DNA from: Toxonevra muliebris
Taxonomy: Eukaryota; Arthropoda; Insecta; Diptera; Pallopteridae
Assembly: GCA_963691655.1 (NCBI GenBank)
Contig: CAVNUY010000015.1
Span: forward strand, 62,001 to 126,000
Reading direction: 5' to 3'
Length of the DNA: 64,000 bases
Under the pieces are notes generated by a model. It was not told where the DNA came from and did not search any database. It saw only the letters and a list, made by a program, of their open reading frames with translations. Shown in pieces: positions 6,792 through 62,940 of this stretch. A program made the translations under genes and the position numbers. Position 1 is the stretch's first letter. Each line of letters starts with the position of its first letter.

Positions 6792-6937
6792 TATTATTGA
6801 GACACATTTTGGTTTTAATTTCAGTATTCTTTAATTCACTTTTTGCCTAATAATAGGGTGTATAATTTCACTAACAATAATATCACACACACAAAACTGC
6901 TGGCACTGTTCCCTCGCGTTCTGCAGTTCCTCTGGTA

Positions 6938-7518
6938 GGCGAGTGAGTAGAGTATACAGAGCATTGTCGTCGATGCGTATGATGCGCCTAATAAGGCGAG
7001 CGAGTAGAGTATACGGAGCGTTGTCGTAGATGCGTATGATGCGCCTCATAAGGCGAGCAGAGTAGAATATCAAGAGGGTTGTCTTCGATGCGTATGATGC
7101 GCCTCATAAGGCGAGCAGAGTAGAATATCAAGAGGGTTGCCTTCGATGCGTATGATGCGCCTCCTAAGGCGAGCAGAGTGTACAAAGCGTTGTCGTCGAT
7201 GCGTATGATTCGCATGATAGGGCGAGCGGGTAGAGTGTACAGATCGTTGTCTTCGATGCGTATGATTCGCCTGATAGGGCGAGCGAGGAGAGTGTACAGA
7301 TCGTTGTCTTCAATGTGTATGATGCGCCTGAGAAGGCGAGCGAGCAGAGTGTATCAAGCGTTGTCTTCGATGAGTATGATGCGTATGACAGGGCGAGCGA
7401 GCAGAATATACAGAGCGTTGTCTTCGATGCGTATGTTTCGCCTGATAGGGCGAGCGAGCAGAGTGCACGGATCGTTGTCTTCGATGTGTATAATGCGCCT
7501 GATAGGGCGAGCGAGCAG
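6938..7518. repeat. 57-bp minisatellite, about ten units
   Basis: The anchor GATGCGTATGATGCGCCT recurs at 6972, 7029, 7087, 7145, 7198, 7255, 7312, 7369, 7426 and 7483 with small variation. The period is 57 bases except for two 58-bp steps and one 53-bp step. Because 57 is 19 codons, several frames remain open on both strands, giving 19-residue repeats such as YRSLSSMRMIRLIGRARRV. Divergence among units is moderate. Nothing indicates which strand, if any, is translated. Confidence 0.92.
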
Positions 7519-7621
7519 CGGGTACAGAGAAAAATCCCGTTTACTGGCGGCGCAGCGACTACGGGACGCGGGTGGAGTAGAGCGTCCGTAATTGTCCTGC
7601 TATTCTCTATGCTACCTTAAG

Positions 7622-32162: not shown

Positions 32163-32556
32163 TGTTGAGGCAGTTGTCCTCGAAATCCTGATTTTCACTA
32201 GAATCTTGAACTAGAGTGACAATCTGATTTAGATGAAATATAAACTTTATTTATTCCAGCGCAAGTGTTCACGTCTGTTAAAATTCCTAAGGAATTACAA
32301 TTCATTAACAATTCATTAAAGTACTTAAATTACATTATATAAAATATACATACTTTCTGGTATGGAAAATCAAGATATGAAATAAGTTCCAGGAACGCTG
32401 ATGCTTTGTGCCGTTGACTATTCTCGCTTAATACAGTCAGACCAATGAATATGTGGAATTAATAATCAGCGGTTCTAGAACTTATTTTACAATTTTGTAG
32501 TAGATTAAAAAATAATATGTAATAGAAAAAAGAAGCTTTAAGCAGTGGCGGCAACA
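32163..32556 (-). repeat. BEL/Pao 3' LTR (on the minus strand)
   Basis: 394 bp, from TGTTGAGGCAG to GGCGGCAACA on the + strand. It is nearly identical to the other LTR, differing mainly by an 11-bp duplication containing ATTAACAATTC near 32307. The pol frame reads into it. Confidence 0.93.
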
Positions 32557-35500
32557 TACCACCCCGCAGTATGGCAAGAAAAGACATATATCGCAGCCCT
32601 ACTAAACGTTTTGAGCCACAGAACAGAAATCTTTGTAACTGGTCTATCCAAAACATCAGTTGCAGTCATGATCTTTGCGCTGCGCACCTGACCATCTTTT
32701 GCTAACCTCGTTTCTATTACCTTTCCTCTTGGCCAAACATTACGAGGACACATAGGATCAACCACGATCACCAAATCACCGACACGTAAAGGTTTTACCT
32801 TCTCATGCCACTTTGTTCTACATGTTACCGAAGGTAAATATTCAGATATCCATCTCCTCCAAAAGTGTTCTGCAAACTGCTGCGATCGAAGCCAACTATG
32901 CTTAAGTACTTCAGAGCTGTCGTTTATAAGAGCAATTGGCTTTATATCGTTCGAGCATCCTACCAGGAAATGATTTGGAGTGATGGCTTCATCATTACCA
33001 TCTTCAAGGGGAACATATGTTAGCGGTCTTGTATTAACAATGTTTTCAGCTTCGGCTAGCATGCTGCGAAGAAGTTCGTCATTCGGTGAGCGACTAGGCA
33101 TTATTTTATAAAGAACTGTTTTTATCGAGCGTACCAGTCGCTCCCAAGCGCCTCCCATGTGAGGTGCAGCGGGTGGATTGAAGTTCCATTTCGTCGAAGT
33201 GGTAGTAAAATGTCTAATCAATGCGTCTCTGTCAACCTCCTCAACTGCTTCTCGAAGTTCCCCTTCCGCACCAATAAAGTTGGTGCCGTTGTCACTGAAA
33301 AATTCTCTCGGTGTACCACGCCTTGCCATGAAGTTTCGTATAGCCAAGATACAAGAGCTAGTGGTTAGAGAATATGCTATCTCCACGTGAATAGCTCTTA
33401 CAGTAAAGCACGTAAACAGAACACCGTATCGTTTTTCTTGATGATGATTCACTGTGACCATAAGTGGTTCCAAAAATTCAAGTCCAGTAAATGTAAACGG
33501 GGCGATATAAGTAGCTAGCCGTGCACGCGGCAATTTTGCCATCTGAGGAACCTGGGGCATTGCTTTGTAGATCTTGCACATTTGACAGTTTCTAACTTGA
33601 ACTTTATAAGTGATGCGCAAACGAGAAATATAATATTTTTGACGAATTTCATTTATTGCGGTTTCATGATTTAGATGGTGATACAAACTGTGATAGTGCA
33701 ATAAAATTAGCGCTGTTAACGGGTTTTCCCTGGGGAGAATAATTGGTTTTTTTTGCTCCTTAGGTACAGATGCTGCATCAATTCTACCATCAACTCTGAG
33801 AATATCGTGTTCGTCCAAATAAGGCGACTTAGCGTACAATCGACTTGATCTTTGCAGCTGCTTGTTCGCTTTCAACGTGTTTATATTATCAATGTACGTC
33901 GTGCGCTGTGCTTGTAGATATAGTAAATTTTCGGTTTTTTGAAGTTCTTCTTGCTGAAGCTCACTACACAATAATTCTATCTTTTTCCATTTTCTTGTGA
34001 TATTTTCAATAAACCGTAAAGTATATGCCACTGTCCTCAGCGGTCTTTTCCACTTTGAGAAACGTTCGATATCGATTAGCTTTTCAGTTATACCAATATG
34101 TAGTACATTATTTTTTAACTCTTCAGTAGTAGGTGGTTCTTGAAATGCACAAGTAGTTGGCCATTCATTCTTTTGCATATATAAAAATTGAGCCCCATTG
34201 ATCCAGCGGGAGTTTTGATGTAAATCTGGTTTGCTTGACCATTTGGTTGCTTCGTCTGCGACATTTAACTTGCTAGGAATCCACCTCCAATCTTTTGTAT
34301 TTGTTAAATCCAAAATTTCAGTTACTCGAAATGCAACAAATTGGCTATATCTACGATGATCTGATTGTAACCAGCTGAGGACAGTTTTCGAGTCCGACCA
34401 ATAAACTAAGCGAGAGATTTTGAGAGTGTGATTTTTGACTATATTACTTACATATCGCGCACCAATTAGAGCTGCCATTAACTCCAAGCGAGGAATGGAA
34501 GTGAGCTTTAGCGGCGATACTTTTGTCTTTGAACCAATAAGAGAGCATACTACTTCATTACTGTTAGATAGCCTAATATAAGACACCGCAGCGTATCCAT
34601 ACGCACTAGCATCTACAAATACATGCAACTGCACATCGAGATCATTATAGTTTTTGAAATGTTGAAGATAACAACGATTTATTTTTGTATTTTGCAAATC
34701 CGGTAAAAATTTAACCCATTTGACTAATTGGGGCGCCAATATTTCTTCATCCCAGTTGATTGCAGTTCGCCAAACTTCCTGTAATAAAATCTTTGCATAC
34801 ATTAGAAAGTGACCTATAAGACCAAGAGGGTCGTAGATCGAAATGAGAATGCGTAGCATTTCCCTCTTTGTAGGCGCACGACTTCCCAGAAAAATGTCAC
34901 TTTGCAGAATCGTTGATGAGATTTTAAAAGATATTTTATCATCGCTGGGAATCCAAAATACTCCGAGTACTTTTTCCATTGCAGCAGCATTGCCTATATT
35001 TAGATTCTTTTCACATATCTGTTGACTATCGCTAAGAGCTTGCAAAACTTCATTTGCATTCGATATCCAATTTCGTATAACAAAACCACCTTTATTATGA
35101 ATGTATCTAACATCTAAAGTTACCTTAACAGCTTCATCGATCGTGTCAAATGAATCTAAATAATCATCTACGTAGTGATTGCACTTAATGGCGTTAGCAG
35201 CTACAGGAAATTCATTTTCGAACTCTGACGCATTCAAGTTCTTTACGAATTGCGATATATTAGGAGCGCACGTAGCTCCAAAAATCATAACGTTCATAAC
35301 ATATATTTCGCGTTCAGTATTGACGTCAATATCACGCCACAGAAATCGCTCTGCGTGCTGATCTTCAGGCCGAATAAAAATTTGGTGGAACATTTCGGCA
35401 ATGTCTCCACAAACAGCAACTGATTTTTGTCTAAAACGATACAAAATACCTGCAAGCGATTCAAGCATATCAGGCCCTGTAAGCAGCAGCGAGTTCAACG

Positions 35501-35712
35501 ATACTCCATTAGCTTTAGCTGCAGCGTCCCATACAATACGCGTCTTGCCAGGTTTATTTTTGTTAAAAACTGCGAATATTGGCAGATACCACGTTTTATG
35601 TTGATCATGTATTTCGTAATCATTTAATTTACGAATGTACCCTTTCGTTAAATAGTCGCTTATAGTTTTCTTGAATGCATTCAGTAACTGTGAATCATCC
35701 CTAATTCACACT
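32538..35712 (-). pseudogene. pol: BEL/Pao pol: RT, RNase H, integrase
   Basis: A very long open frame, from about 35712 to a stop inside the LTR, encodes most of a BEL polyprotein. RT motifs include KTRIVWDAAAKANG (around 35530), GDIAEMFHQIFIRPEDQ and NHYVDDYLDSFDT (catalytic DD). RNase H follows (HVFVDASAYGYAAVSYI, ELMAALIGARYV, YWSDSKTVLSWL). The integrase has a zinc module (HYHSLYHHLNHETAINEIRQ, NCQMCK), then GLEFLEPLMVTV where the first catalytic Asp of the usual GVDYFGP is Glu, then FFSDNGTNF and GGAWERLVRSIK. A BEL-type C-terminal domain follows (KVKPLRVGDLVIVVD). The protein starts partway into pol, and gag and protease are absent. The D-to-E change suggests a defective integrase even in this long frame. 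Confidence 0.92.
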
Positions 35713-35850
35713 TCCATATATCGAAACAAGTTGTGGAAGGGACGTTAGCGCAAGTTTTATGAAAGTGTTTGCGACACTGAACACAAAGAATGATCTTTGA
35801 TCTGAAGGCAGATCGTGTGGGGTTGGTGGTTGACCTTGTGAGGAGTTCAT
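35710..35850 (-). pseudogene. gag: BEL/Pao gag start with PHD-like zinc-finger remnant
   Basis: An ATG at 35850 opens MNSSQGQPPTPHDLPSDQR. In a shifted frame the sequence continues CVQCRKHFHKTCANVPSTTC, then WKCELG. The C-x2-C, H-x2-C and W-x-C spacing resembles a PHD finger, which I recall at the N terminus of some BEL Gag proteins. The sequence then jumps directly into RT, so the deletion removed almost all of gag and the protease. The frameshift lies between the ATG segment and the finger. Confidence 0.55.
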
Positions 35851-35996
35851 TTTGTACTTACTTTGAGGTTAGCAAAATGGCGACGAGTGACCAAGTAATA
35901 TGGTGGCACGTGGCACTGTGATGGCGTATTCGGGCAATTCAAAAAGAATATCTTCAGCAGCAACTTAAGCTGCGAAGTACAGAAAGAATTTTAATT

Positions 35997-36379
35997 TGTT
36001 GAGGCAGTTGTCCTCGAAATCCTGATTTTCACTAGAATCTTGAACTAGAGTGACAATCTGATTTAGATGAAATATAAACTTTATTTATTCCAGCGCAAGT
36101 GTTCACGTCTGTTAAAATTCCTAAGGAATTACAATTCATTAAAGTACTTAAATTACATTATATAAAATATACATACTTTCTGGTATGGAAAATCAAGATA
36201 TGAAATAAGTTCCAGGAACGCTGATGCTTTGTGCCGTTGACTATTCTCGCTTAATACAGTCAGACCAATGAATATGTGGAATTAATAATCAGCGGTTCTA
36301 GAACTTATTTTACAATTTTGTAGTAGATTAAAAAATAATATGTAATAGAAAAAAGAAGCTTTAAGCAGTGGCGGCAACA
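35997..36379 (-). repeat. BEL/Pao 5' LTR (on the minus strand)
   Basis: 383 bp from TGTTGAGGCAG to GGCGGCAACA, near-identical to 32163-32556, followed by the CAAAC target duplication. No convincing primer binding site is visible just inside it. Confidence 0.93.
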
Positions 36380-37689: not shown

Positions 37690-38222
37690 AGAGATTTGAA
37701 TACTTATACACATACGCCAAGGCAAAAAATATTGATCTTTTTATAGTAAACAAGTTTTTTTTAGACGTCAATCAAATTAATAAACTTACCCACTAAAATC
37801 CCATCACAATACACACAATCCGATATCTACATGTTTCATTTTTATTAAAATTTCAGCAAATTTGTATTTTAACGCGGTGTTGCCGATTTTCTCGCTACTG
37901 CTGGTGCAAAAAAATCAAATTGAATTTGGTTTGAATCGAATATTTTTCATTTTGCCAGCGAAACTTATGATCATTGATTATGTTTGTGTTGGTGGTAATG
38001 GATGGGTGGTTTATTAGTTTGTCATCTTACATCATTGATGTCTGAGACAAAGTTGTTTATTATGAAAAGATAAATATTATTTGCTTTTACACCAATCCTC
38101 CGGCGTCTCGGCGTACCGCTATTTTGGGAGATTTTTGGAGTATATGTCCCCAAAACCAATTTTGGTGTTCAGATACCCATTTTACTTTTTTATGGGGAAT
38201 ATTTTTGTCGAAAGAAGTATGT
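37690..38222. repeat. Right foldback arm, cut by the Gypsy-2 LTR
   Basis: Inverse of 36380-36767 plus 32015-32162. Its outer end stops at 38222, where the Gypsy-2 LTR begins, at the same point in the arm where the left copy reads CATACTTC. Confidence 0.83.
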
Positions 38223-39591
38223 TGTCACCGTCACTTTCGCGCTCAAATTAGATTAAAGAAGAAAGACGGAATCTCTGCGTTGCCAGCTATCTCTGTGGAG
38301 AAGTGGTCGCAGGTTCAAAATAAAATGAAAATAAGAATAAAAAAAAATATTTTTTGAAACGCTCGATTTCTGTAGCCCAATACTGAGCTACCGCACAATT
38401 TTACAAAATGTAAAATTAAATTTCACCCGCACAACCTGCTGGGCTCATGAGCACACAAACGGACTTTCACAAATTTTAGAAGAAAGAAGAGAAAATAAAG
38501 TTTATAGTAGGAGAAGCCTACTCCACAAACACAATAGTCACTTGCAGTTAGCACCAACTGCCAAAAAGTGACCACTACAAAAGAAAAATATAAAAATAAA
38601 AGGGTACTCCCTGGATTAATGGGTTTATGAACCCTCCTATATTCGCGCACAAGGATCGCGACCCGAAAATTAATTCCCGAACAAAGTAACCCGGCTAAAA
38701 TTACTTTACCACTGTCGCTACAAGTTAGCGACACAACAAAATAAAAATTGATTTTAACTTCTAAAATGTCCGATACACCCCGACTCGGTGCTCCGCGCTC
38801 AATATTTAATAGAATTAATAAATTTAACACTATTGGTCCACCACGACTTGGTGGTACCAATCACAATAATATTAATTTAAAATACTTTGGTTCACCCGAC
38901 TTGGTGATACCAAAGTACACAAAAATTAATTCATCAAAAAAAAAAGGACACAAAACAAAATTTAATAATTCGCACAAAAAAATCGCACAAGATTCAAAAA
39001 AGTGTATAATTTAAAATAAATCGTTAAATATTCGCACTAAGAAAAATTCTGGTAGTCGCTCTCGAAAGCTAGCACAGAACTGAATATAAGTACGGTGCAA
39101 AAATATGTACCACTTATATTCAGCCACATACATTATCTTTTCGTCCGCTATGTCAGCAGGACACAATGCAGTTTCTCCAAGAAACTGGTCTCTAAACGGG
39201 AAATCATCATACCCATACATGTGTGGGTGTACATGATTACACCCTGGACAAAGTCCCCGATCCAACCAATTGTATGAGAATTGGCGGCAATGCACCTGTA
39301 TTAGTGCATAGCGGAGTCATACCGTTGAATTCTCACTAGAAAATCAACCAAACGAGAGAACCAAAGTTTTCCCGTTTTTCCGCAAATTTACAACAAATAC
39401 ACCTCTGCGCTCTCTTACAGAAGTCTCCATATCCCCACTCCCAGTGTTATAATCTAGTACTAAATGGTACTCTTTTACTATTGTGAATGTGGATATCGGC
39501 CAAAAAGAAGAGGAAGAGTGACAGAAGAAAGATAAAGAAAGAAAAGAAGAAATAGGTTAGAAAGTGCAGCACGCGGCTGCGCTTCCTAACA
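38223..39591 (-). repeat. Gypsy-2 3' LTR (1369 bp)
   Basis: Starts TGTCACCGTCACTTTCGCG and ends GCTTCCTAACA on the + strand. By eye it differs from the other LTR at roughly a dozen positions plus small indels, which points to a recent insertion. It contains three consecutive short hairpins sharing the core CACC...GGTG at 38776-38790, 38832-38861 and 38884-38916. A 145-codon frame on the element's sense strand (38423-38860) lies wholly inside the LTR and is repeated in the other LTR. It has hydrophobic stretches and no recognised domain. Confidence 0.93.
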
Positions 39592-39721
39592 AAATTAAAA
39601 TTAAATAATTTTAATTTCGCGAGTGACGCGCCGCGGAATTAAATCGCGATAATCCCACCTCTACCTCCGCGAAAGTTGCTTGGACTCACCAAGAGGACAA
39701 CAACTTTCGACCAGCACACCC
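39592..39721 (-). other. Gypsy-2 3' untranslated region
   Basis: Only 130 bp separate the end of integrase from the LTR. I cannot point to a clean polypurine tract immediately next to the LTR; the adjoining sequence is A/T-rich. Confidence 0.6.
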
Positions 39722-40750
39722 TTAGTCCGGCCAGTACTCCTCAGTATGTGGTCTCAGGTCTTGCACATGCCAAGTACCTTTTTCCCTACCGTCCTCATCT
39801 TCTAATATATAGTTCCAAGGAGACACCCTCTTTTTAATCCTAAACGGTCCAATAAATTTCGGAGCCAACTTCGCGGCGAAGAAGTTTGCAGCATCCGACA
39901 GTACAAAATTTTTCCTCCAAACCAACTCGTTTGGTAAATACTGTGTATCCCTACGTCTTAAATTATAAGTCTGCGCCATCTTGGCGCTGGCTGTCTGTAG
40001 CTTAATGCGTATGTTTTCCCTCAAGTCTGCCATTTGCTTGGCTCTGTCCTCGATACTTGTCGTAGTCGTTTCGTCAAAGTCATTTTCCCGTCTGTAATCC
40101 TTGTCTCCCCGGACTGCCATGTTTCGCCCAAAGTTTGCATAGTACGGAGAAACCCCCAAGACTTCATGTTGTACTGTGCGTATACAACATGCTACCTTAG
40201 ACAGGTGGGTATCCCAAGTCTTGTGATTTTCCGACACATATGCCCTTAACGTCGTCTTAATCGTCTGGTTAATGCGCTCCGCTGGGTTTGCCTGAGGGTG
40301 ATAATGAGCCGTATATCTAATGCGCACTCCATACGACTCACATAGAGCCTTTAGCCCTTTGCTCCTAAATTGGGGGCCATTGTCGCACACAATGGAACCA
40401 GGGACACCAAAGAGAAGGAACACATTGTCTTCCAACTCTCTTAAAATGCTCTTGGCTGTTGCCGCCCGCAACGGAAACAAGAGCGGAAACTTAGTGAAGT
40501 AGTCGACCACAGTGAGTATATAACAATACCCCCGGTTTGACCTGACTAAGGGCCCTACCAGATCCACACAGATCATTTCAAAAGGCTCTAAGACCTTGGT
40601 TCTACCTACCATACAACCAGCTGGTCTTCTGTTTTCAGGTTTGACACTCTGACAAACCTGACACCCACGTACATACCTACTAACATCCGCCTTCATCTTC
40701 GGCCAATAATATCTCTCTAATACCCTACTAAAGGTTTTCAGGTTTTTCAC
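39722..40750 (-). pseudogene. pol: Gypsy-2 integrase
   Basis: Integrase inserts the cDNA into the genome. The 342-codon frame has the end of the zinc module (RYVRGCQVCQSVKPENRRPA), then catalytic FEMICVDLVGPL, IVCDNGPQFRSKGLK and AHYHPQANPAERINQTIKTT, so the D, D, E triad is present. The C-terminal region includes VWRKNFVLSD, APKFIGPFRIKKRVSP and a final LRPHTEEYWPD. Upstream, at 40750-40900, the join to RNase H is frameshifted and part of the H2C2 zinc-binding segment (the HxxxH half) is not recognisable. The core itself looks intact and is the best preserved part of the element. Confidence 0.9.
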
Positions 40751-40898
40751 CCTTACCTAGGACTCTTTTCCAGTCATATGCCTGGTTATACATATTCTGG
40801 GGTCCTGTTTTGACGTGCTTATACAAATCCCCATTCTGGATACGCCACGCCGGATAATTTAATGGGTCTTCCGATACCCTTTTACACATATTAGTTAG

Positions 40899-42225
40899 TC
40901 ACGTATCTCGCGACGACTCCGCGACTTCGTTCACGACCGGAACACTTCTCGATAACATGTCTGGAACGACATGTTCTTTACCTTTACGATATACGATCTC
41001 GTAATCGTATTGTTGCAACTTCAACACCCATCGCGCCAATCTACCGCACGGATCTTTTAAGTTGTTGAGCCATACTAACGAGTAATGATCGGTCACCACT
41101 GTGAAACGAACACCTTCGATGTATGGTCTCAACCGCCCACAAAACCGCCAAACATTCCTTCTCCGTCGTTGAATAATTTCTTTCACTCCTACTCAGGGAC
41201 CTACTTAGGTAAGAAATTACTTTTTCCCCCTCGTCAAACTCCTGCGTCAGTACGGCTCCCACTCCAAAGTCTGATGCGTCAGTCTGTAGTACAAAGGGTC
41301 TATCAAAGTCTGGGCAACTTAGGACAGGAGCTGTTACTAAACACTCCTTGGCCCGCAAGAAACTATCCTCACATTCCTGAGACCAGTGAAACCTCTTATT
41401 TTTCTTTGCAAGATCAGTAAGGGGCCTCACCAATTCCGCGAAATGTGGCACAAACCTACGGTACCACGAAACAGTTCCCACAAAAGATCGTACTTCCTTA
41501 ACGTTTCGGGTCGCTGGTATCTTAAGCATGGCCTCGACCTTCTCCGGATCTACATGTAGACCCTGTCGATCGACAACATACCCAAGATACTTAAGCGAAT
41601 ATAAACAAAAGTTACACTTCTGCCGATTCAAACGTAAACCCGCGTTGCATATACGGGTCAGGACCTCCTTGAGCACTTCAATGTGTTTCGCGAACGTGTT
41701 CGTGACTATGATGATATCATCAAGGTACACGAGCACGTGAGGCTCTAAGTCGGCACCAATGACTCTGTCAATAAATCTCTGCCAAGTGGCAGGCGCATTA
41801 TGCAGACCGAAAGGCATACGCTTGAATTAGTACAAACCCCTACCAGGGACAGTAAATGCCGTGAAGGCCCTAGAATTCTCCGCTACTAGTATTTGCCAAT
41901 AGGCGGATTTAATATCTAAGCTAGATAAGTATTTAGCATCTTTCAGCTTGTCTAAAGTAGCTGAAATATACGGTAAAGGGTAACTATCTTTTTCAGTATT
42001 TTTGTTAAGGGTCCTATAGTCCACACAAAACCTATACGTATCGTCCTTCTTTTTTATCATTACCACAGGAGAAGCCCATGGACTATGTGATACCTCAACC
42101 ACCCCCTTCTCTAACATGTCTTCTAGTTCAGTATCAATTCGTTTCTGAATCGCCGGCGACACGGGATAATACCGTTGTTTAGTCGGTTCGACGTTCGGAT
42201 CCGATGTTCGACCAAATGAGTACAC
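40899..42225 (-). pseudogene. pol: Gypsy-2 reverse transcriptase and RNase H, with a nonsense codon and a frameshift
   Basis: RT begins near 42225 with TKQRYYPVSPAIQKRIDTEL and shows SSLDIKSAYWQI. A TAA at about 41826 breaks PGRGLY from FKRMPFGLHNAPATWQRFID. The catalytic motif VLVYLDDIIIVT and the LKYLGYVVDRQGL thumb region follow, then RNase H with FVLQTDASDFGVGAVLTQ and TTEKECLAVLWAV. A frameshift near 41100 moves the remainder (GVRFTVVTDHYSLVWL, then RKGKEHVVPDMLSR) into another frame. Apart from these two lesions the domain is full length. Confidence 0.9.
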
Positions 42226-42660
42226 CCAAGACCATCAGGCATACTTTCGAAAGTATCCACTATCAATCGGCTTAATTCCTCCTCTTCACTCCTGGACAAT
42301 TGTGTCCTCTCAATTATCGTCGCGACTGACGAGACCTCGACTTGGCCTGAGAATCTCCACTGATCCTTGGATAAATCTGGTACAACACCCGACTTTACCC
42401 AAAAGTCAACACCAAGGATCAGCTTCTGTGGAAGATTCGGAATTACTAAGCAATTTATGAGGACCGACTTGCCCTCCACCTCGATTGGTAGTGATACTGT
42501 ACCCTCGACCGGTACCCGCTCTCCATCCGCCAATGCTACATCGCGAATATTACACGCATTGGGTTTAATACCCCACGATTTTAAAATTTCCCATCCAGGG
42601 CGCCCGAGTATGGTGCGCGTTGCACCCAAATCCAAAAAAAGCCCTAATTAGCACGCCAAA
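42123..42660 (-). pseudogene. pol: Gypsy-2 aspartic protease region
   Basis: The retroviral-type protease matures Gag-Pol as a dimer. The frame reads FFLDLGATRTILGRPGWEIL near its start, LADGERVPVEGTV in the middle and KLILGVDFWVKSG (the conserved hydrophobic-Gly motif). The active-site triplet, normally D-T/S-G, is D-L-G here, which should abolish catalysis if it is real. Downstream the frame overlaps the start of RT and ends with a frame change near 42150. Confidence 0.75.
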
Positions 42661-44277
42661 AATTTTAACTCCTAAATATGGTCTACTATCCGATTCATTT
42701 TTCGAAAACACAAAACCTAGACACACAACTTCTCGATCTCAATGAGAAGGCCTAATACCTAACACCAGCTGATTGCTCGCAGGCAATCTACCTAACTCCG
42801 ACGAGTCTCCTGCCCTGCTGCCACAGGAGCTCGCACCACATTTCCCGAATTATTTGGGATACGATTATCCCCTCTAGGGCCCGTCCGACCCATGGCAGAA
42901 GCACTACCTCCATTATTCCGATTATTTGGAATATCTGTAATGGCCCGCTGTACACCGAGGACAATCCCGCTTCATTACGCCAGCTCTTCCGCAACCGTAA
43001 CATTTTATTCCGTTGGGACAGTTCGCCGATGCATGTCCAAATCGCTTACAGTTGAAGCACCGGAACGACGCTAGCTTCGACTGTGTTGGTGCCTTTATCA
43101 GACGCTCCAATCGTTGATCCCGAAGTGGCGCATTAACTTACGCGACATCTGGTCCAATCGATACGTACGCGAGATCCGGTTCCAGTAGGTTCTTCGACCG
43201 ACTACTGGGTGGTGGAACAAACGATTCTACGTTTGTCCGAACTGCTTCCAGTCGACGTCCGAGGGAAACCAATTCGGGCAACGATTTCGGCTCAGCCAAG
43301 CCCAGCTGAGTTTGATAGAAAGGCGAAAGATTCGCCATAATTAATCCTAATATCCGACGCTCGGATAATGGTTCGGAAAGCCTGCCGAACATCCCTTTCA
43401 TCGCCGCAACATAAACTCCAATGGACTCCGTACCTCCTTGAGTCCGACGTCTGATTTCGTCCAATAAAATTTCGTCGTAGTTGGGTGGTAAAAACTCCAA
43501 CTTTAGCTCCAATACTAGCTCGTGCCAGTTAGACACCGTCTTGCGCACCGCTCGGAACCATATGAGAGCCTTTCCTGAAAATAAATCTACTGCTCCACGA
43601 AGAAGTTGAGTCTCACTGACTCCACGAGCTTCACACAGCTCGTCCACACGCTCCAGGAAGGCATTGAGAGACAAACCAGTCTTCTCGCCATTGAACTTTA
43701 CTTCCCACTTGGCCAAATTTTCAAATTTTTCTAAGGCTACGGCACCTCCAGCCGAAGGTGCAGTCCTAACCCCAGGGGAATCTAACCCCACTTCTACTGC
43801 AGCCTCCTTCTGCAGAGTTCCCCTCTGAATATTCCCTAACATGGGCCTTGGCACCGCCATTGGTGCAGCCTCTTCCTCATCCCCACCTATCAGCTCATCA
43901 AGCTCAGCTAGAAGCATAACTAGCTTACTTTTGAGCTCCATTTGTTCTGACGCCCCTACTCCATCAGTGGGCTTCGCCCGAGAAATCCGCCCAAGCGCCC
44001 ACTCGATCTTCACGAGTATCTTTCGGTACTCGGAAGACTTCGTATCCTTGGGTGGCGACAACATTAAATTCACAATCTCAGAAATTTTGTCGACAACCGC
44101 ATCCTTATCCTCTCCAAAGAGAAACGGATAATCGGCGAAAACGTCAACGGATCCACGCCGTTCGACAACCCTGGAAGCCCTCAACGACTTCCTCATGACA
44201 TCCACTGTGTCAATTTTCAAACCCCGAGACTCCATCTCGTAGGCCAACTCTTCTTGGTTTAAACGATTTATTTCCAT
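42661..44277 (-). pseudogene. gag: Gypsy-2 gag with CCHC zinc knuckles
   Basis: The frame starts at 44277 (MEINRLNQEELAYEMESRGL), an N-terminal motif typical of this group of insect Gypsy Gags. A capsid-like domain follows (LAKWEVKFNGEKTGLSLNAF, GKALIWFRAVRKTVSNWHEL, EIRRRTQGGTESIGVYVAAM). An in-frame TAA at 43138-43140 follows SIGPDVA, and the same frame then continues into two knuckles: CFNCKRFGHASANC and CYGCGRAGVMKRDC. The second has Val where His is expected, a form I recall in relatives. Gag packages element RNA. The stop makes full-length Gag impossible without readthrough. Confidence 0.85.
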
Positions 44278-45012
44278 TATTGAGATTGAGAAAGAGAGAA
44301 AAAAAATTGAAATAAAGAAAGGAGAGAAGAAAAAAAAACAAAAACAAAATCGCTGAATTTCCCAAACAAATTTCCCACTAGTATATACTAGTCACAGATA
44401 AGGAAAATAATAAAAAAAACACGAAAAAAATATAATAAAAAAAATAGATAAAAAAAAATAAAAATGTTTGTAAAAATAATAACTATAATAAATATTAATA
44501 ATAATAAAAAAAAATAACGCAAAATTAAAAAAAATATTAACGCAAAAATTTAAATGAAATTTTTTAATAAAACGAGGAACCGAAAAAAACAAAAAAATGA
44601 ACTTTAATTTTAAATTATAAAAGCAGTAAAAAAATAAAAAAAATATAATTAAAAAAATAAAAAAAATTTAAAAAATTTAATAAACCCAAATTTTTTTTTT
44701 TAAAAAATTAAAGTAAAAAAAAATTTAATTTAATAAAACCGAATTTAAAAAAAAAAATAATAATAAAACGGAACGGACTCACCGAACGCAAAACCCAAAC
44801 CACCAAACAAGTTTTCCGGACAAAGTTGGGTACACAATTTTTACTCTTCCGACTGCTGATGTTCACCGCTGGAACTCAAAGTAATTTTCTTCTGGAAGGA
44901 AAAAAAATTATTAGTGACACAATTCACTAAATTATATAAAAAATAAAAAAAATACAAAAATACACGTTCGTGAGAATTCCGATTCTCAATTTAAATTTCT
45001 TAATAAATGAAT
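44278..45012 (-). other. Gypsy-2 5' leader, extremely A/T-rich
   Basis: Lies between the primer site and gag. The + strand is dominated by A runs (44400-44770), meaning U-rich leader RNA. No ORF is expected here. Confidence 0.7.
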
Positions 45013-45031
45013 GCCGTACGTTGGGCGCCAA
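45013..45031 (-). promoter_or_regulatory. Gypsy-2 tRNA primer binding site
   Basis: Read on the minus strand just inside the 5' LTR: TGGCGCCCAACGTACGG. The first 13 bases match the 3' end of tRNA-Lys as used by Drosophila gypsy (TGGCGCCCAACGTGGGG). It primes minus-strand cDNA synthesis. Confidence 0.85.
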
Positions 45032-45033
45032 TT

Positions 45034-46390
45034 TGTCACCGTCACTTTCGCGCTCAAATTAAATTAAAGGAGAAAGACGGAATCTCTGCGTTGCCAGCTA
45101 TCTCAGTGGAGAAGGGGTCGCAGGTTCAAAATAAAATGAAAATAAGAATAAAAAAAATATATTTTTTGAAACGCTCGATTTCTGTAGCCCAATACTGAGC
45201 TACCGCACAATTTTACAAAATGTAAAATTAAATTTCACCCGCACAACCTGCTGGGCTCATGAGCACACAAACGGACTTTCACAAATTTTAGAAGAAAGAA
45301 GAGAAAATAAAGTTTATAGTAGGAGAAGCCTACTCCACAAACACAATAGTCACTTGCAGTTAGCACCAACTGCCAAAAAGTGACCACTACAAAAGAAAAA
45401 TATAAAAATAAAAGGGTACTCCCTGGATTAATGGGTTTATGAACCCTCCTATATTCGCGCACAAGGATCGCGACCCGGAAATTAATTCCCGAACAAAGTA
45501 ACCCGGCTAAAATTACTTTACCACTGTCGCTACAAGTTAGGGACACAACAAAATAAAAATTGATTTTAACTTCTAAAATGTCCGATACACCACGACTCGG
45601 TGCTCCGCGCTCAATATTTAATAGAATTAATAAATTTAACACTATTGGTCCACCACGACTTGGTGGTACCAATCACAATAATGTTAATTTAAAATACTTT
45701 GGTTCACCCGACTTGGTGATACCAAAGTACACAAAAATTAATTCACCAAAAAAAAAAGGACACAAAACAAAATTTAATAATTCGCACAAAAAAATCGCAC
45801 AAGATTCAAAAAAGTGTATAATTTAAAATAAATCGTTAAATATTCGCACTAAGAAAAATTCTGGTAGTCGCTCTCGAAAGCTAGCACAGAACTGAATATA
45901 AGTACGGTGCAAAAATATGTACCACTTATATTCAGCCACATACATTATCTTTTCGTCCGCTATGTCAGCAGGACACAATGCAGTTTCTCCAAGAAACTGG
46001 TCTCTAAACGGGAAATCATCATACCCATACATGTGTGGGTGTACATGATTACACCCTGGACAAAGTCCCCGATCCAACCAATTGTATGAGAATTGGCGGC
46101 AATGCACCTGTATTAGTGCATAGCGGAGTCATACCGTTGAATTCTCACTAGAAAATCAACCAAACGAGAGAACCAAAGTTTTCCCGTTTTTCCGCAAATT
46201 TACAACAAATACACCTCTGCGCTCTCTTACAGAAGTCTCCATATCCCCACTCCCAGTGTTATAATCTAGTACTAAATGGTACTCTTTTACTATTGTGAAT
46301 GTGGATATCGGCCAAAAAGAAGAGGAAGAGTGACAGAAGAAAGAAAGAAAAGAAGAAAAAGGTTAGGAAGTTCAGCACGCGGCTGTGCTT
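45034..46390 (-). repeat. Gypsy-2 5' LTR (1357 bp, outer 7 bases missing)
   Basis: Matches 38223-39591 from TGTCACC onward, including the three CACC...GGTG hairpins (about 45588-45728). It ends GGCTGTGCTT without the terminal CCTAACA and runs into TTGGAATTAATG, which matches sequence beside family A copy 6. Confidence 0.92.
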
Positions 46391-46494: not shown

Positions 46495-49272
46495 AATGGA
46501 TGTGTGCAAGGCAGTTAAGCTAACTGAATGTCATATACCTAAGCTCACATATGTATAGTAGATGGCTTATTTGCTCCATACATTTTGCTAAAGTATTTCA
46601 GATCTTAATTGTGACAGCAGAATATGAAATTAGGGTGCTAAAAACTAATTGAAATAAAAAAAAAAAATTTGTGAAAACTGGATGCGCTACTCCGAAAACC
46701 GTGATTTTTAAGGATGTTTTACAATAGGTTTGGGATTTTGTATGGAAAAAGCATTTAACTTGCATATAAAAGATTTTTAGATATCCATATTTATGTAAAA
46801 AATGCCGCTAAAGCGAATGGAGTACCCAGTTTTTTGATACAACTGAACCCAAAGCCACCCCTAGCGCCTAAAGTGACCATTTAGCACTTTTTTTACAAAC
46901 TTTTAAATTCAAACGTAAGGGTTTTGAAGATAGCGGTAATTTTTTTGTAATTAAAGTACATCGAATTGTAGGTAATTTAATTTAGTTTATTTGAAAAACA
47001 AAAATCATATCGAGTTATATTTGAACTAGTAAATTAACTTTTAGTGAACCCATGTCGAGTACAATCAAGTTCATCTTTGACAAATTTCGCCAAAAAATTG
47101 CAAAAAACAAAGCAGACGTTGAAAAAATTGTATTAAATTAATGAAACTTACCAATTAAGAAGTAACTACTAACTTTTAAAATGTTCTCCATACTTAATCG
47201 CTTGCGTCAAAATTGTGGATTTATATCAATATGTAATACAGGTGTCCCCGTATAACACTATTATTAGGCTCCAAAAAAACCATCGTGTTGTGCGGAACAA
47301 GGAACCAGTATAAAAAGCGGAGTTAGGCTCCAAGAATTTAGAAATCTGCCGTATTATATACGAAATCGTACAAAAATAGGGTTATGTAGTACAAGTAGTA
47401 CAAAAATAGGGTTATGTTTCAAGAGTTTAAAAAACAAATTTTTTGGATTTGTGTCGTTCGAGCTGTCACATGCAGGGGCATTCATTTGCTTTATGTATAT
47501 TTTAACTTTTTGTACGGTTTGATACATTTTCTCTCTTTTATTAATAAATTAAAGTTTTTAATTTTGATTGTAAAAAGTAAAAAAACAGAGATTATTGATT
47601 TTATATAAAAAATTTTAATAATAAGCACTTAACAGATAATTTGTTTGAAGATTTAAAGAAAAAATTTGAATTTAACAAGCAAAAATAACAATGAAACTAG
47701 AACACAGAGTGAACTGGAATGGAATGGTGCTGAATGGTCACTTTAGGCGCTAGGGGTGGCTTTGGGTTCAGCTGTATCAAAAAGCTGGGTACGCAATTCG
47801 ACATTTAGCGACATTTTTTACATAGATATGGATATCTGAAAATCTGTTATATGCAAGTTAAATGCTTTTTCCATACAAAATCCCAAACCTATTGTAAAAC
47901 ATCCTTAAAAATCACGGTTTTCGGAGTAGCGCATCCAGTTTTCACAAAATTTAAATTTTTTTTTTCATTTTAATTGGTTTTTAGCACCCTATTTTCATAT
48001 TCTGCTGTCTCAATTAAGATCTTTAGCAAAATAAGCCATCTAATGTATAGTCATATATAGGGATTTAATGTATAATCTATATGCTTAGGTAATTAATTCA
48101 AATTAAAACCACTCTTTTATAAACTTAAAAACTTATTAGATATCATTATCTTTTATATATAATAGCCCAATTCACCATAAATTGCAAATGGTCTTACATC
48201 ATTGCAAATGCAAATTTTTATTCCATATCACATATATTTGTTGTTGTGATAGCATAAATATTTTGCAATTGCACCAAATCGTAAATAGGGCCGATATGTT
48301 GTAGCTGCATTATTTTTCTTTTACTCAATGCATCGGGATCTATATGCTCGCATATACGCAGCTGCAATTGCATCCTTTTTTCGCGCTTTAAGTTTTTCTT
48401 CCTGTCGATTTGAAATTTTATTAGATGTGAAAATTTTACATAACGTCGCCTGAGAATTGATTTGACGTATAGGTATATGAATTTGTACACACATACGTCA
48501 AATCAATCCTCAGGCGACGATAAGTGCTTTCCGCATTTAACCTTAGAAAGGCAACAGGGATGACTAGTCACCCCACTACTTTTTAAAAGCACCGCAAAGA
48601 GAGTTGTCTTAACTGTATTTAATAAAAATAAGAAACAAAGTATTTTCTTTGAAGTAAATAAGTGATTTTATAATAAATAAGTTTGATTTTTTCTGTTTAA
48701 CATTTTTGCTATTTACATAGATACAAAAAGTGTTGCCTTTCTAATGTTAATGTACAAAGCAACATTTTTATAATGCCGTGGCTTTCTATCATTATCACTA
48801 CATTTTGTTTATACATTTATTGAAACCTAGATTCCTTATTACTTATCATTTTGTTTTTATATTTTAAAAAATATTTAATTTTAATGCAATCTAAGTAACC
48901 GAATACAAAACCTATCAAACGCCTGTGTTTGCTACGGCGACTTCTCTGCTTGTATGGTATAGTCGATCTCCACACGTTTAACACCAACAAATAATTCTGC
49001 CACGAATAAATGTACACACACATTTTGTTTTCGTATGCACATATATGTGTGAGTAAATTGATCGAAACATAAACAAACAAACTCCGCTCGTATTTTAATT
49101 TCTCCCTCTCTTCTTCTCTTTGTTGTTTAGAGTAGCACAGTCATGCCGCGCAGTAGTGTGAGCGAGAGGAGAACTGGACGTTACAGTTATCTTACATCTT
49201 ACGATACAGTTATTCTTACATTTTACACATTTGAAATTTTGCCCATACCGTGAGCTAAAATGTTTACACATC
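46495..49272 (+). mobile_element. Family A element, copy 8, carrying a foldback insertion
   Basis: Starts ATGGATGTGTGCAAGGC. About 24 bases covering half of the hairpin and the subterminal repeat are deleted, and it ends GTTTACACATC. The internal long hairpin is complete (48443-48470 pairs with 48493-48520), and one base pair differs from the other copies on both sides. A foldback element interrupts it at 46559-48042. Confidence 0.85.
46559..48042. mobile_element. Foldback/hAT-like non-autonomous element with long TIRs and 8-bp target duplication
   Basis: Begins TAGATGGCTTATTTGC and ends GCAAAATAAGCCATCTA. Inverse homology extends about 320-350 bp from each end (for example CGGTTTTCGGAGTAGCGCATC on one side and its complement on the other). 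ATGTATAG is duplicated at 46551-46558 and 48043-48050, and other family A copies have a single copy of this site. An 8-bp duplication fits hAT or P-type elements. The centre (46990-47690) encodes nothing recognisable and contains two AAAAATAGGGTTATG phrases near 47375 and 47405. Confidence 0.88.
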
Positions 49273-52980: not shown

Positions 52981-53450
52981 GAGCCCGTGACAAAAAAAAG
53001 TCTCTGACTTTCTGAAGGCTAGTTTTGTAATATGTTGTAATATTTACTTGTGAAATACTCTGGTCAGTCAGGTTTTGGTTGGAACAGGTGGCACACGTGA
53101 GCTTTCAAACATATCGAAAATACGAGGTAAGTGCAACGGTTTTCTATAGGCTGAAACTTTATATACAGGTTATGTATTCAATAAAAATCATAATTCCGGG
53201 AGTCAGCCAGATTTTCGTTAGAACGGGCTCGTCAGTCAGGGTAAAAGTTTGCATGAAAAAAAATTTTTTTGCAACAGTTTTCTAAAATCTAAAAAACAAA
53301 ATTTTAAGTGGTTTATCAATAATAAAACATGAAAAAGTTAATCAGCCAACTTTTTGATATGACAACGCTCGTCAGTCATGGCATATAAGTCCAGTCGGTA
53401 GAGTAAAAAATCTTATCTAAGATCTAGTGATTGTTAGTCGGGGTATGATA
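52981..53450. repeat. Repeat C, left inverted copy, segment 1
   Basis: Starts GAGCCCGTGACAAAAAAAAG and is the inverse of about 62473-62940. It includes the TCTGACTTTC, TGGTCAGTCAGG and CTCGTCAGTCA phrases. The copy continues at 57345 after a 3.9-kb insertion. Confidence 0.85.
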
Positions 53451-55554
53451 CACAGAGAAAAAAAACAGTGTTAAACGTGTTTAATAATAAAACATTTGGC
53501 GCTAAGCGTGTTCATAGTAATATTTAGCGCAAACATGTTTAGGTTAAGTAAACATGTCCGTTCTCGACTTCATTACGAACATATTTAAATTTGTTAAAAT
53601 TGTTCATAATAAATACTAAAACGATGTATTTGAAAATTTTAAACATGTTTATGTTTTTGAAATCAAGTTTTAAAAATGTTCATGTTTTTGAAATCAAATA
53701 TCAATTATTAAATAAAATACTATTTTATTTTTACAAATGATATATTTATTTATTTACTTAAAAGTAAATTAACATTTTTAAGCTGAAAGCCCTTTTTGTA
53801 TTAGGCTTTTAAATTTTAATTATAAGTTATAGTAAGTAAAATAAATAAATAATAAAATTTTCCATTTTTATAAAAGTGATTGCAATTGTCCGGACATTTG
53901 CAGCACAAAAACATTGTTCTTTTAAATTAATGAAACTTCTGTTAATAAATCTGTAAGTGAAGCTGTACAAAAATCGTTCTCAGTATTAATCCCGTACATA
54001 AATTTCTGAGTAAATGTCCATGGAGCGATGTAAACAACCGGATATTTCAAATTGAATACTTGAAATATTTTAAAACACATGTCTACACCTTTAAGCAGGC
54101 TTTCTACCTTGTAAGAAATTAACATCAGCAACAAAAATTTTGCAGCTTGTATTCGTCTGCTCCTTGGACTACGAGAAATGGCTGCAAGGTTGTTTTATTT
54201 GCAAAATTGCTCTCTTGATGTTTTGATATTGTTTCTGCTATGATGTTAAGATTTGTAACATGCGTGATGAAAAAATTTTGTGACTCAATTATAGTTAGTT
54301 TCTTCGTGTGAATTTTTAAAATGTTTGCATGGCAGTAGAACTCCTACCAAGAGAATAAATGTTAGGTAGTTAACAGAATCTGAATAAGAAAAAAGAAAGT
54401 AGGCACATAACTTATTACTTAAACAACAAACCTTCATTTGTTATATAATTTAAATCTGTGAGATGCGTTTTGCACGTTGTATCCTTAATATGGCGCTTGT
54501 AGTAGTCTAGCAGTTTTTGTTTTACTGTAATCCAATTTTGTTCCGTTTTATTCGGAAAAATTTCATTAAAGCCATATTCAATCTGTCAAAACGAAAATGT
54601 TTATTTTACATTAGATTAGTGATTAAAACAAAATTAATATGTAAGTATGAATAGATACCAATTTATAGCCATACGATTGTTTATATGCCGGCCAGCGATT
54701 TAGAATTTCTGCTGTTCCTGAATACACATCTAAGTCACGCTTTCGCAATGAAAACGTTTCTCTCCACAATCTGCAGGTGGTGTTAAAGTCAGAAAAATCA
54801 TTGAACAAGACATACCTTGATTCTTCCATTAACTCCAAAGAGAGTTCGATTTCAACTGTATAAATATCTATTGTTTCACTCAATGAATTGCTTTGATTTA
54901 TTGATGCAGATAACCGCTAAATTTTTTTGGTTTTGTTTTTGCAATTATAATACTTTGAATACAATTTTCCAGAAGGATTTCCCTTGAGTTTTCTCGGAGT
55001 GAAATAATAACTTTGAAAAATAATTAATTATTTTAGTGAAAAATTTTATAGGGTGATTCCGCCCCGATATACATGAAAAAAGGTGACAGGCATAGTATTT
55101 CACTGGGTTTACCACCTGCTTTCATGTTTTTCATCGGAATGGAATAACCCTGTATAATCATGGTCTGAAACGGTTGAATATTTACTTTTGACTCAGTAGG
55201 AAATAATTGAACTATATTGTGTCAAATTTTGTCAAAATGTTCTGGACCCAGCTTAATTTTTAAGAAAGAAATCTTTCCTAAAATTAAGTGAATGATGATA
55301 TTGCGATGTTCCGTCAGTAGAAATTCGTTGTTGTTGTAAAATTGCAAGACAGTGTTTCCAATATCGGTTTCAGTTAAAATTCTTTTATAAACTGTATAAA
55401 TAGTAAATTAATTAAAAATACATAAATATGTGGATTAGAATATTAGTATAAAACAAAATATTTTATTTATTACTTCGAGTGTAAAACAATCACCAAGCAA
55501 ACGTATGTCCTTTGAGTCATCTTGTTTCACGTTCTAGAAAAGATTTAATATACC

Positions 55555-55596
<42 letters not shown>

Positions 55597-57344
55597 TACA
55601 TACATACACCTCAGTACCACGAATATAGATAAATAAAATAAGTCTTTATTACATTTTCAAGATCCTTATTACCGAGGTATGACCTGCACCAAACTACTAA
55701 ATTAGAAGCAGGAATCATATATATTTACAAAGGTACATCTGTACTGGCACATAAAAAGTAATTTATCAGCACAATCCGGGCTATATTAAAATATCAAAAT
55801 TACCTTATTTTTCCATACAGTTAACTTTTCTTTTCTTTGCCGCACTTTAGAAATTAACTCTTTTAGGTCAGATTCTTGAAGGTATTTTAAATTGTGAATG
55901 GTAACGTCTTGTTCTGAAATGTAAATTAAGATTTTACAATTGATTCGTTGGTTGCCAAGCCAAAACTGAGATTTTAGAATTTCACAACTAACTGTCTTGT
56001 ACATGAAGATTTCATATTTATGTGAGGTTATGTATGTATGTTTAAATAAAAAATTGTTTTAAAAAGTTTAATAACATGAACAAAATCATGAAAATTTGTT
56101 CTAATGCATCTTAAGGATAAAAATATATATTTATTTACTCAAGAAATTTGTTCATATACAAGACAGCTAAAGCGTTGGTTGCCATAAAGGCTTCTTTTAC
56201 ACATGGAAAACACAAATCCTCTATAGTTGTACCCAATAATCCAATGTTTGATTAAAAGAACACTGGTTAATAAACACATTTTTAAACAAAGTTCACTAAT
56301 CACTTTAAAATAATTAAATAAACTACAATAATAATAATAAATGAATCTTTAAGTCCCGTCATGCGCCGCTTTCTTTATATTTTTCAAATGCAAATACTAG
56401 CGATGCATAAAATTTCATTAGCAAGTACTTTTTACTCGTTAGTTGAATATATTAAGTGCGTAAAGTGAGTATTTAAAGTTTAATGCACTTTTTACTTATC
56501 AATTGTACTTAAAAAAATTTATAGTTATACATATTTTCTTTACAGTATTCTTTTTTACACCATATTGTATTTTAAAAAAAAATTAAAAACCGAACACTTA
56601 GGTCGTATAAATAGATATCGACAAAATGCATCACTAGTATCTACACATACCGTTATTAAAAACCGAAAATAGCAACAAAATAATGGCCACTCGCAGCAAA
56701 CAATTTTGCATTTCATTTATTTCACCCACCTTTGAATTTATCATACAAGTAAGCACAGTCCACCTTTTCCAATAAATTTATTAGCACTTCATTATTATTT
56801 AATGACATTATTTTTTATTTTATTTACACAGTTTATAGCATAATTAATAACACACAAAACACGACGAAGTAACCACCGAACCGAACTGCAACAAAACCAA
56901 ACTCGTATTGTTTCTTTCGTTTCGTTTTTTTGTTAACTGGCGCCGGCATTGCCAGGCAAATATTTTAATCTTAACAATTGGAAAGGGTGACTTTATTAGG
57001 ATTTAACTTTTTATTTCTGTAACGTTTTGAACATAATGTTACATAAATAAATGAATATATTTGTTTTTTTTTTAATTTAGAGGTATATTTTTTTCATAGC
57101 ACATCCGTAAATAACAATAAATTTGCATTATTTAAAAGAATGTTTACATCTGGCAATTCTATTCAGATATTCTTATTTTCAAAATTATACATTTTTGGTT
57201 TAAAATTGAACATATTTCAAATAGTCAACTCAAAAATGTTTTAGGTGTATTTGTGTTTAATAATATTGAGAAAAACACATTTTATATATTAAGATGTTGT
57301 ATAATGTTTTTTAATGATTTTTCCATTGTGCAGTTTTCTCTGTG
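53451..57344 (-). mobile_element. TIR element carrying a SAMD3-like gene
   Basis: The left end reads CACAGAGAAAAAAAACAGTG. The right end, on the opposite strand, reads CACAGAGAAAACTGCACAATG. It interrupts repeat C; the inverse copy at 62461-62476 keeps the uninterrupted site (on the matching strand GGGGTAGATTAGATGG). The simplest reading is a duplicated TA, which would put it with TA-targeting DNA transposons, but longer degenerate duplications cannot be excluded. A GTGTTTAATAAT phrase occurs as a direct repeat near both ends (about 53477 and 57254). AAACATGTTTA-like motifs cluster at 53470-53660. A degraded eight-exon gene occupies 53922-56808; no DDE transposase is recognisable. Confidence 0.6.
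53922..56808 (-). pseudogene. SAMD3-like multi-exon gene (SAM-type N-terminal domain), degraded
   Basis: I trace eight exons on the minus strand with GT/AG borders: 56730-56808 (MSLNNNEVLINLLEKVD), 55804-55913 (LKYLQESDLKELISKV), 55474-55533, about 55060-55391 (LTETDIGNTVLQFYNN), 54816-54992 (GNPSGKLYSKYYNCKNK), 54659-54770 (DLDVYSGTAEIL, RWPAYKQSYGYKL), 54432-54582 and about 53922-54379 (DSVNYLTFILL, TTLQPFLVVQGADEYKLQNF, VDMCFKIFQVFNLKYP). Exons 1-2 form a SAM-like domain. The later landmarks (GKLY, WPxYK...GYKL, LQPF, CFKIFxVxNLxYP) match what I remember of proteins annotated SAMD3-like in fish and insects. Lesions: TGA at 55222-55224, TAG at 54917-54919, a phase mismatch between exons 3 and 4, and one or two shifts in exon 8. 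The function of the family is not known to me. Confidence 0.62.
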
Positions 57345-57442
57345 TAGATGGAAAAACCACAAAAAACAGTTCTGGGGTTGCAGTGCGACCCTCCCCTTCC
57401 CCCCTGAAAAAGCCATTTTTTTACTAATAACTGTATTAAAAA
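57345..57442. repeat. Repeat C, left inverted copy, segment 2
   Basis: Continues the inverse match to about 62390-62465 (ACAAAAAACAGTTCTGGGG, GCAGTGCGACCCTCC, TTTTTACTAATAACTG). It is interrupted again by family A copy 9. Confidence 0.85.
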
Positions 57443-60729: not shown

Positions 60730-61423
60730 ATCAAGAAGAAGAATCCATTAAGTCTTGGCCGAAAATAATATAATTAAATACGATTCCCGAGAGCCTGTAC
60801 CAAAATTATTGAAACGCCACATAAGCGCACGTTTGGCATTTGCTGAAAAACTTAAATTTTTCTGACGAAAAAATATTCAATTTGGACGGCCTTGATGGCT
60901 GTCACAAGTACTGGTGCGATGTAAGGCAACCTCGCCAAACTCGTCATAAGCGAAATCATGGTGGCGGATCGCTGATGATTTGGGCTGCTTTTGGGTATGC
61001 TGGAAAGTCTCCGCTATGGTTTATTCCAACTAAAACAAATGCGGACATTTATGTACAAATGTTGGACGAAGTGCTTGTTGAATTTGCTGGGGACCTGTAT
61101 GGAGATGGTTGGATCTTCCAGCAGGACAACGCGCCAATTCATACAGCACGCACTACAAAGCAGTTCTTTTCATCCAGGAACATACCTGTTTTGGAGTGGA
61201 ACATATCAGTCCGGATCTAAACCCTATTGAGGACCTGTGGGGGATACTTTCAAACAAAATTTATAAGAATGGCCGCCAATTTGAGACCATTAAACAGCTT
61301 AAAGAGGCTTTACTTTATGAGTGGGATCAAATAAGCCCCTTAACTTTAAAGCAGTTGGTTGATTCCATGCCAAACCGAATTACGCAAGTGTTTCTTAAAA
61401 AAGGAAAACATATTAACTACTAA
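60730..61423 (+). pseudogene. Tc1-like DD34E transposase remnant
   Basis: Frames between 60730 and 61423 give most of the catalytic half of a Tc1-type transposase: HISARLAFAEK near 60820, a first catalytic region NLDGLDGCHKYW, GGGSLMIWAAFGYAGKSPLW, then GWIFQQDNAPIHTAR (second Asp) and, after a frameshift near 61205, SPDLNPIEDLWGILSNKIY (third residue Glu). The spacing of Asp to Glu is about 34 residues, as in Tc1. The C terminus (LVDSMPNRITQVFLKKGKH) is present and ends at a TAA. Frame changes near 60860 and 61205 and the missing N-terminal DNA-binding domain make it inactive. I could not find its terminal repeats by eye. Confidence 0.85.
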
Positions 61424-62202: not shown

Positions 62203-62940
62203 CTAAAAATGTGCGCGCATCCACAGTACATTCAAAGTACAAAATTTGGAATTTCTTAAAGATTGAATATCTCAAAAACTATGACATATACGAACAAATT
62301 AACCAATGCCTTTTTGTAGGAAATCACTCAAGTTTTTTTTTTGTAGTGATTAGTTTTTTGATATCTTCAACGGTTAACCAGTTATTAGTAAAAAAAATGG
62401 CTTTTTACCAAAGGGGGGAGGGTCGCACTGCAACCCCAGAACTGTTTTTTGTGGTTTTTCCATCTAATCTACCCCGACTAACAATTACTGAATCTTAGAT
62501 AAGATTTTTTATAAACTTTTGGTGCCTTTTTTTACTCTACCGACTGTGCTTATATGCCATGACTGACGAGCGTTGTTGTATCAAAAAGATGACTGACTAA
62601 CTTTTTCATGTTTTATTATTGATAAACTACTTAAAATTTTTTTTTCAGATTTTAGAAAACCTTTGCAAAAATTTTTTTTTCATACAAACTGGGAACTGAT
62701 TGACTGACGGGCTCCGATCTAACGAAAATCTGACTGACTCTCGTTTTTTGTTGAATACATAAACTGTAAATAAAGTTTCAGCCTTTAGAAAACCATTGCA
62801 CTTACCTCGTATTTTCGACATGTTTGAAAGCTCACTTATTCCACCTGTTCTAACCAAAACCTGACTGACCAGAATATTTCACTAGTATAACAACATATAA
62901 CAAAACTAGAAAGTCAGAGACTTTTTTTTGTCACGGGCTC
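62203..62940. repeat. Repeat C, uninterrupted copy
   Basis: About 740 bp, inverse of 52981-53450, 57345-57442 and 58710-58865 combined, ending GTCACGGGCTC. It contains five GACTGAC phrases (for example TGACTGACGAGCG, ATGACTGACTAAC, GATTGACTGACGG). It serves as the reference empty site for the SAMD3-like element and for family A copy 9. Confidence 0.85.

Follow-up and report, generated by a model that had tools for sequence, protein, structure and literature searches.

A transposase-less element in Toxonevra muliebris as a probable deletion copy of a two-gene transposon pairing a SAM-like gene with a RAG1-like transposase

How does an element with inverted ends and a SAM-like gene, but no visible transposase, come to lie inside a host repeat? 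The question is raised by positions 53451-57344 of a 64,000-nucleotide stretch of the genome of the fly Toxonevra muliebris (contig CAVNUY010000015.1, positions 62,001 to 126,000; the whole stretch is referred to as the window). A sequence-only reading of the window had raised the possibility that a TA-targeting DNA transposon has the SAM-like gene as its coding content, either as cargo or as the mobility protein itself. Comparison with related copies in the 491-Mb assembly (96 contigs) indicates, with a probability of about 0.87, that the element arose by internal deletion from a 6.4-kb two-gene transposon, in which the SAM-like gene precedes that of a transposase, RAG1-like in its predicted fold, which likely moves both genes by cut-and-paste.

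The element is 3,894 bp long and bounded by 11-bp inverted ends, CACAGAGAAAA, a sequence that occurs once per strand across the window. TA is found directly outside each end. The flanking host repeat (52981-53445 and 57345-57433) aligns with a single uninterrupted inverse copy about 9 kb away, so that both the inverted termini and the interrupted repeat described in the sequence-only reading are borne out. Small indels separate the filled from the empty site at the insertion join, and a TA duplication is consistent with the alignment there, though not letter-perfect.

Exact matches to the 29-bp left end are found at four places in the genome, each preceded by TA, and matches to the 29-bp right end likewise at four (three exact, one with a single mismatch). 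One copy of this family (family 1), L006 (C3), is 6,384 bp long and carries both ends with TA on each side. L006 and the window copy are collinear, with about 89% identity, and between window positions 53859 and 53886 L006 has about 2.34 kb more, which identifies the window copy as a deletion derivative. In L006 the SAM-like gene is open across seven exons with GT/AG borders, the adopted exon 4/5 border agreeing with homologues. It is followed on the same strand and in the same frame by a second gene, the transposase, whose start codon lies 6 nt past the SAM-like stop (L006:4815-4840); this spacing suggests a two-gene transcript or reinitiation.

For the transposase of L006, zinc fingers and a DDE core of RAG1/Transib type, made up of three acids with C-x2-C and H-x3-H, are predicted from its motifs, and its predicted fold matches RAG1 and HzTransib. 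A C-terminal BAH domain is predicted as well. The DDE core with C-x2-C and H-x3-H is found in all 68 aligned proteins and in seven of eight genome copies, the C pair being unaligned in the eighth. Among 20 members of the family, Transposase_21 (tnp2) was matched once, below threshold (E 0.0067), and DUF4218 in four (best E 0.00088). No relatives were found in viral contigs, nor in bacterial and archaeal genomes, which were searched with the transposase query only. One homologue, P0109 of Frankliniella fusca, is publicly named 'Major inner capsid protein VP3', apparently a misnomer.

The deletion is not private to the window. Its junction is present in two copies elsewhere in the genome, L005 and L044, the latter with a small further difference. 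A junction common to three transposase-less copies fits a single deletion event, after which the short form spread in trans. Both ends are kept by the window copy alone among the three: the right end of L005 was not found and the left end of L044 is lost. Two further family-1 sequences lack TA outside, namely L046 at its left end and L045, a 157-bp end fragment. For its own mobilisation the window copy likely depended on a complete element acting in trans, and, judged from its sequence, it is now able to make neither protein intact.

Some copies have been altered further. L005 contains a 2.2-kb insertion (L005:2498-4739), whose ends are TGTAATG...CATTACA and which is flanked on each side by a CTGT repeat. 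In L009 the same 178-bp element piece occurs twice (L009:2280-2457 and 5519-5696) beside the C28 copy, probably as a result of nested insertions or duplication.

All seven exons of the L006 SAM-like gene model are present on the minus strand of the window, and 12 of 12 AG/GT borders are retained. The gene is nevertheless broken: indels shift the frame in exons 4 and 7, and 9 nt are missing from exon 2. The exon-like segments of the sequence-only reading are thus real, but they number seven instead of eight, and with about 1.43 kb of coding sequence in a 2.9-kb gene span they do not fill most of the interior. The L006 protein matches six fly proteins (best Rhagoletis pomonella, E 3.2e-64) in a search whose scoring was confined to the 7,992 candidates with the most shared words, and a query built from the window copy returned no homologue among 1,948 candidates. 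Best protein matches in Musca and Rhagoletis point to a fly as host. Annotations in Rhagoletis, Musca, Cochliomyia, Eurosta and Zeugodacus treat proteins of this SAM family as ordinary, uncharacterised genes, and Pfam DUF4769 scores above cut-off in one of the six matches. The SAM domain itself is a pattern split across exons 1 and 2 of L006, with weak matches to the profile SAM_TNK (E 0.2) and to a structural chain of tankyrase-1 (E 0.71); Pfam profile searches of the SAM-like proteins did not match a SAM domain. A structure predicted from six sequences was of poor quality.

Association of the two genes extends well beyond family 1. The transposase query has at least 68 matches in the genome, from which five stretches, chosen for long matches, were fetched: L046 of the same family and four diverged lineages (L049, L050, J47 and J48). 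Transposase identity between the five lineages is only 32-52%, and all five have a SAM-family gene as same-strand neighbour of the transposase. In L049 and L050 it is located upstream, as in L006, the SAM-like segment scoring best E values of 1.5e-17 and 6.8e-7, respectively. In J47 and J48 it is located downstream (best E 1.2e-22 and 1.9e-16), where the SAM-like segment, split over two exons, was read by eye and not scored.

Inverted ends were identified in three of the five lineages, and there both genes lie inside CAC...GTG ends with 2-bp duplications, in support of the proposal that the SAM-like gene is part of what a DNA transposon encodes. The L049 element spans 5,601 bp, with TA duplications and the ends CACCGAGAGAAAAA and CACCCAGAGAAAAA, a match reached in none of 500 shuffles. 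Three sites each hold a 6,817-bp copy of J48, the second and third copies being 99.94% and 98.9% identical to the first. They have CACGGAA ends, duplications of AA, TA and TA, and a transposase frame open at 829 aa in all three. Near-identity of these copies, in combination with 2-bp duplications and unlike flanks, implies that the gene pair moved together recently. In L050 and J47 the search for terminal inverted repeats gave AT-rich matches only and no convincing ends, so the expected recurrence of ends around other SAM-like genes holds for L049 and J48 but not for these two. The ends start with CACAG, CACCG/CACCC or CACGG depending on the lineage. Altogether, CAC...GTG ends and 2-bp duplications characterize six of six two-ended elements; the dinucleotide is TA/TA in five and AA/AA in one, which upholds TA as the common target and not as the only one.

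Two observations weigh against a two-gene transposon: ends are known in only three of the five lineages, and a wholly intact family-1 element was not seen among the copies examined. Moreover, the deletion copies keep their ends although their SAM-like gene is broken, and ends alone would be mobilisable if transposase were supplied. Together with the annotation of SAM-family proteins as ordinary genes in five fly genera, this would also be expected of a host gene captured long ago and carried as passive cargo without a role in transposition. Such a capture is considered unlikely, since pairing in five of five diverged lineages, with the gene order swapped in two, argues for long co-evolution. 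In addition, L006 and the window copy differ more at third codon positions (42/477) than at first (22/475) and second positions (28/477), though introns differ at 102 of 1,432; the third-position excess is a mild sign of coding constraint.

Seen by itself, the window copy has no gene other than the SAM-like one, which could for this reason be mistaken for the transposase. Nothing further speaks for this assignment, entertained in the sequence-only reading, and it was rejected with very little probability left to it, because longer relatives carry a separate transposase with DDE, C-x2-C and H-x3-H motifs and a RAG1-like predicted fold, the very gene deleted from the window copy. TA duplications in five of six two-ended copies would be compatible with a Tc1/mariner-type derivative that targets TA and captured an unrelated gene. 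However, one J48-type copy is flanked by AA/AA, and the collinear full-length copy has a transposase of a RAG1/Transib-like family; this origin, which we regard as extremely improbable, was rejected on account of the AA/AA copy in combination with the RAG1-like core.

For the preferred two-gene transposon, the following mechanism can be proposed. The transposase would pair and cut the CAC...GTG ends and insert the element with a 2-bp stagger. Its zinc fingers, and possibly the SAM-like partner too, might bind the ends or subterminal repeats resembling AACATGTT. This motif, chosen after looking at the sequence, occurs ten times in L006 with at most one mismatch, nine of the ten within 340 bp of an end. 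The SAM-like partner would help the element to move: since SAM domains often polymerise, its SAM-like domain could allow the partner to polymerise and thereby bridge the two ends. The BAH domain, in turn, might tie insertion to chromatin marks and so steer the complex. A wider generalization is put forward tentatively, at somewhat less than even odds: one lineage of insect RAG1-fold transposons could move as an obligate two-protein machine, with a polymer-forming SAM-domain protein in the role of RAG2, a transposase-fused BAH domain reading chromatin, and some uncharacterised fly SAM-like genes being transposon subunits instead of host genes.

Among known systems, the best placement for the element is within the CMC/Transib (CMCT) clade or close to it, as judged from core motifs, ends, duplications and the fold match to RAG1 and HzTransib. 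In the excerpted text of PMC12730594, this clade comprises EnSpm-CACTA, Mirage, Chapaev, Transib, Plavaka, ESTA and Lanisha, and is described by a DDE core with C(2)C and H(3-4)H between the second D and the last E, by CA...TG ends and by 2-5 bp duplications. The elements described here share the DDE core with its C pair and H pair as well as CA...TG ends, and their 2-bp duplication falls within that range, whereas the SAM-like partner gene and the predicted C-terminal BAH domain set them apart. The titles and abstract openings listed in the literature searches contain no description of a SAM-like or BAH-bearing CMC element, although a Repbase entry cannot be excluded. Mirage elements have 2-bp TA duplications, compared with TA in five and AA in one of the six two-ended elements here. 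In plants, En/Spm encodes a transposase and a second protein, has short subterminal repeats and gives rise to transposase-less deletion copies moved in trans. The present elements resemble it in their second protein, subterminal repeats and deletion copies without transposase. However, En/Spm and the present elements differ in their ends (CACTA against CAC), duplications (3 bp against 2 bp) and partner (TnpA-type against SAM-like). Ends of the CACAG type have these five letters in common with the heptamer of the recombination signal sequence, CACAGTG.

A RAG1-like predicted core and ends starting with CAC are shared with Transib and with RAGL/ProtoRAG, and RAGL elements likewise consist of two genes. 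According to the available portion of PMC7204232, however, Transib and RAGL produce 5-bp target duplications, compared with 2 bp here, and RAGL is a convergent RAG1L-RAG2L pair. In the present elements both genes lie on one strand in five of five lineages and the partner is SAM-like; a RAG2-like gene was not searched for. TRC elements such as SmTRC1 are CACTA-related, are flanked by 2-bp direct repeats and include insects among their hosts, with ends beginning CCC and Transposase_21 (PMC1636069, in part). Similarity is thus found in the 2-bp repeats at the insertion, the CACTA-related transposase and the insect hosts. The ends here begin CAC, Transposase_21 is limited to the one sub-threshold match in 20, and the SAM-like partner has no counterpart in the TRC description as far as the excerpt of PMC1636069 extends. 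The CACTA core that defines EnSpm/CACTA sensu stricto in the same excerpt is absent from all three types of ends.

If the two-gene transposon is correct, a multi-copy, unnamed family of fly SAM-like genes becomes a testable transposon subunit. It would also be the second example, after RAG1-RAG2, in which a transposase of RAG1 fold and an unrelated gene travel as partners. The J48-type copies, near-identical and with open 829-aa frames, are suited to a direct insect-cell assay of the roles of partner and BAH domain.

Table 1. Element at 53451-57344 and the inverse host repeat, in window coordinates.
Feature	Position	Strand	Basis or remark
Left TA, target-site duplication	53449..53450	.	TA outside both ends
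Left terminal inverted repeat CACAGAGAAAA	53451..53461	+	Single occurrence per strand in window
Left subterminal non-coding region with AACATGTT-like repeats	53462..53858	.	89-92% identity in L005, L006, L007
Deletion junction and remnant of transposase 5' end	53859..53921	-	Alignment to L006 2386 and 4728-4819; about 2.34 kb of transposase gene gone
SAM-like exon 7, frame broken	53922..54379	-	L006 gene model; matches Rhagoletis, Musca, Cochliomyia proteins
SAM-like exon 6	54432..54582	-	L006 gene model
SAM-like exon 5	54659..55010	-	L006 gene model
SAM-like exon 4, 1-nt indel	55172..55391	-	L006 gene model
SAM-like exon 3	55474..55533	-	L006 gene model
SAM-like exon 2, second half of SAM-like domain, 9 nt missing	55804..55913	-	L006 gene model
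SAM-like exon 1, start codon, first half of SAM-like domain	56730..56808	-	L006 gene model
Right terminal inverted repeat	57334..57344	-	CACAGAGAAAA on minus strand
Right TA, target-site duplication	57345..57346	.	TA outside right end
Uninterrupted inverse copy of host repeat	62379..62940	-	Empty site about 62466-62470

Other repeats are present in the window. Two direct repeats of 1.36 kb, 98.5% identical, enclose gag-like and pol-like frames at 38222-46390 and give, by eye, the picture of a young long terminal repeat retrotransposon. At 32163-36379 a 1,055-aa pol-like frame (32538-35705), BEL/Pao-like by eye, is located between two repeats of about 390 bp with 97% identity. Between 15793 and 58713 many copies of a dispersed repeat, up to about 1.2 kb long, occur in both orientations, with a small fold-back at 48438-48525. 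Shifted self-matches at 6937-7529 reveal tandem repeats built of units of about 57 bp, and a 131-aa frame at 60825-61220 resembles, by eye, a piece of a Tc1/mariner transposase.
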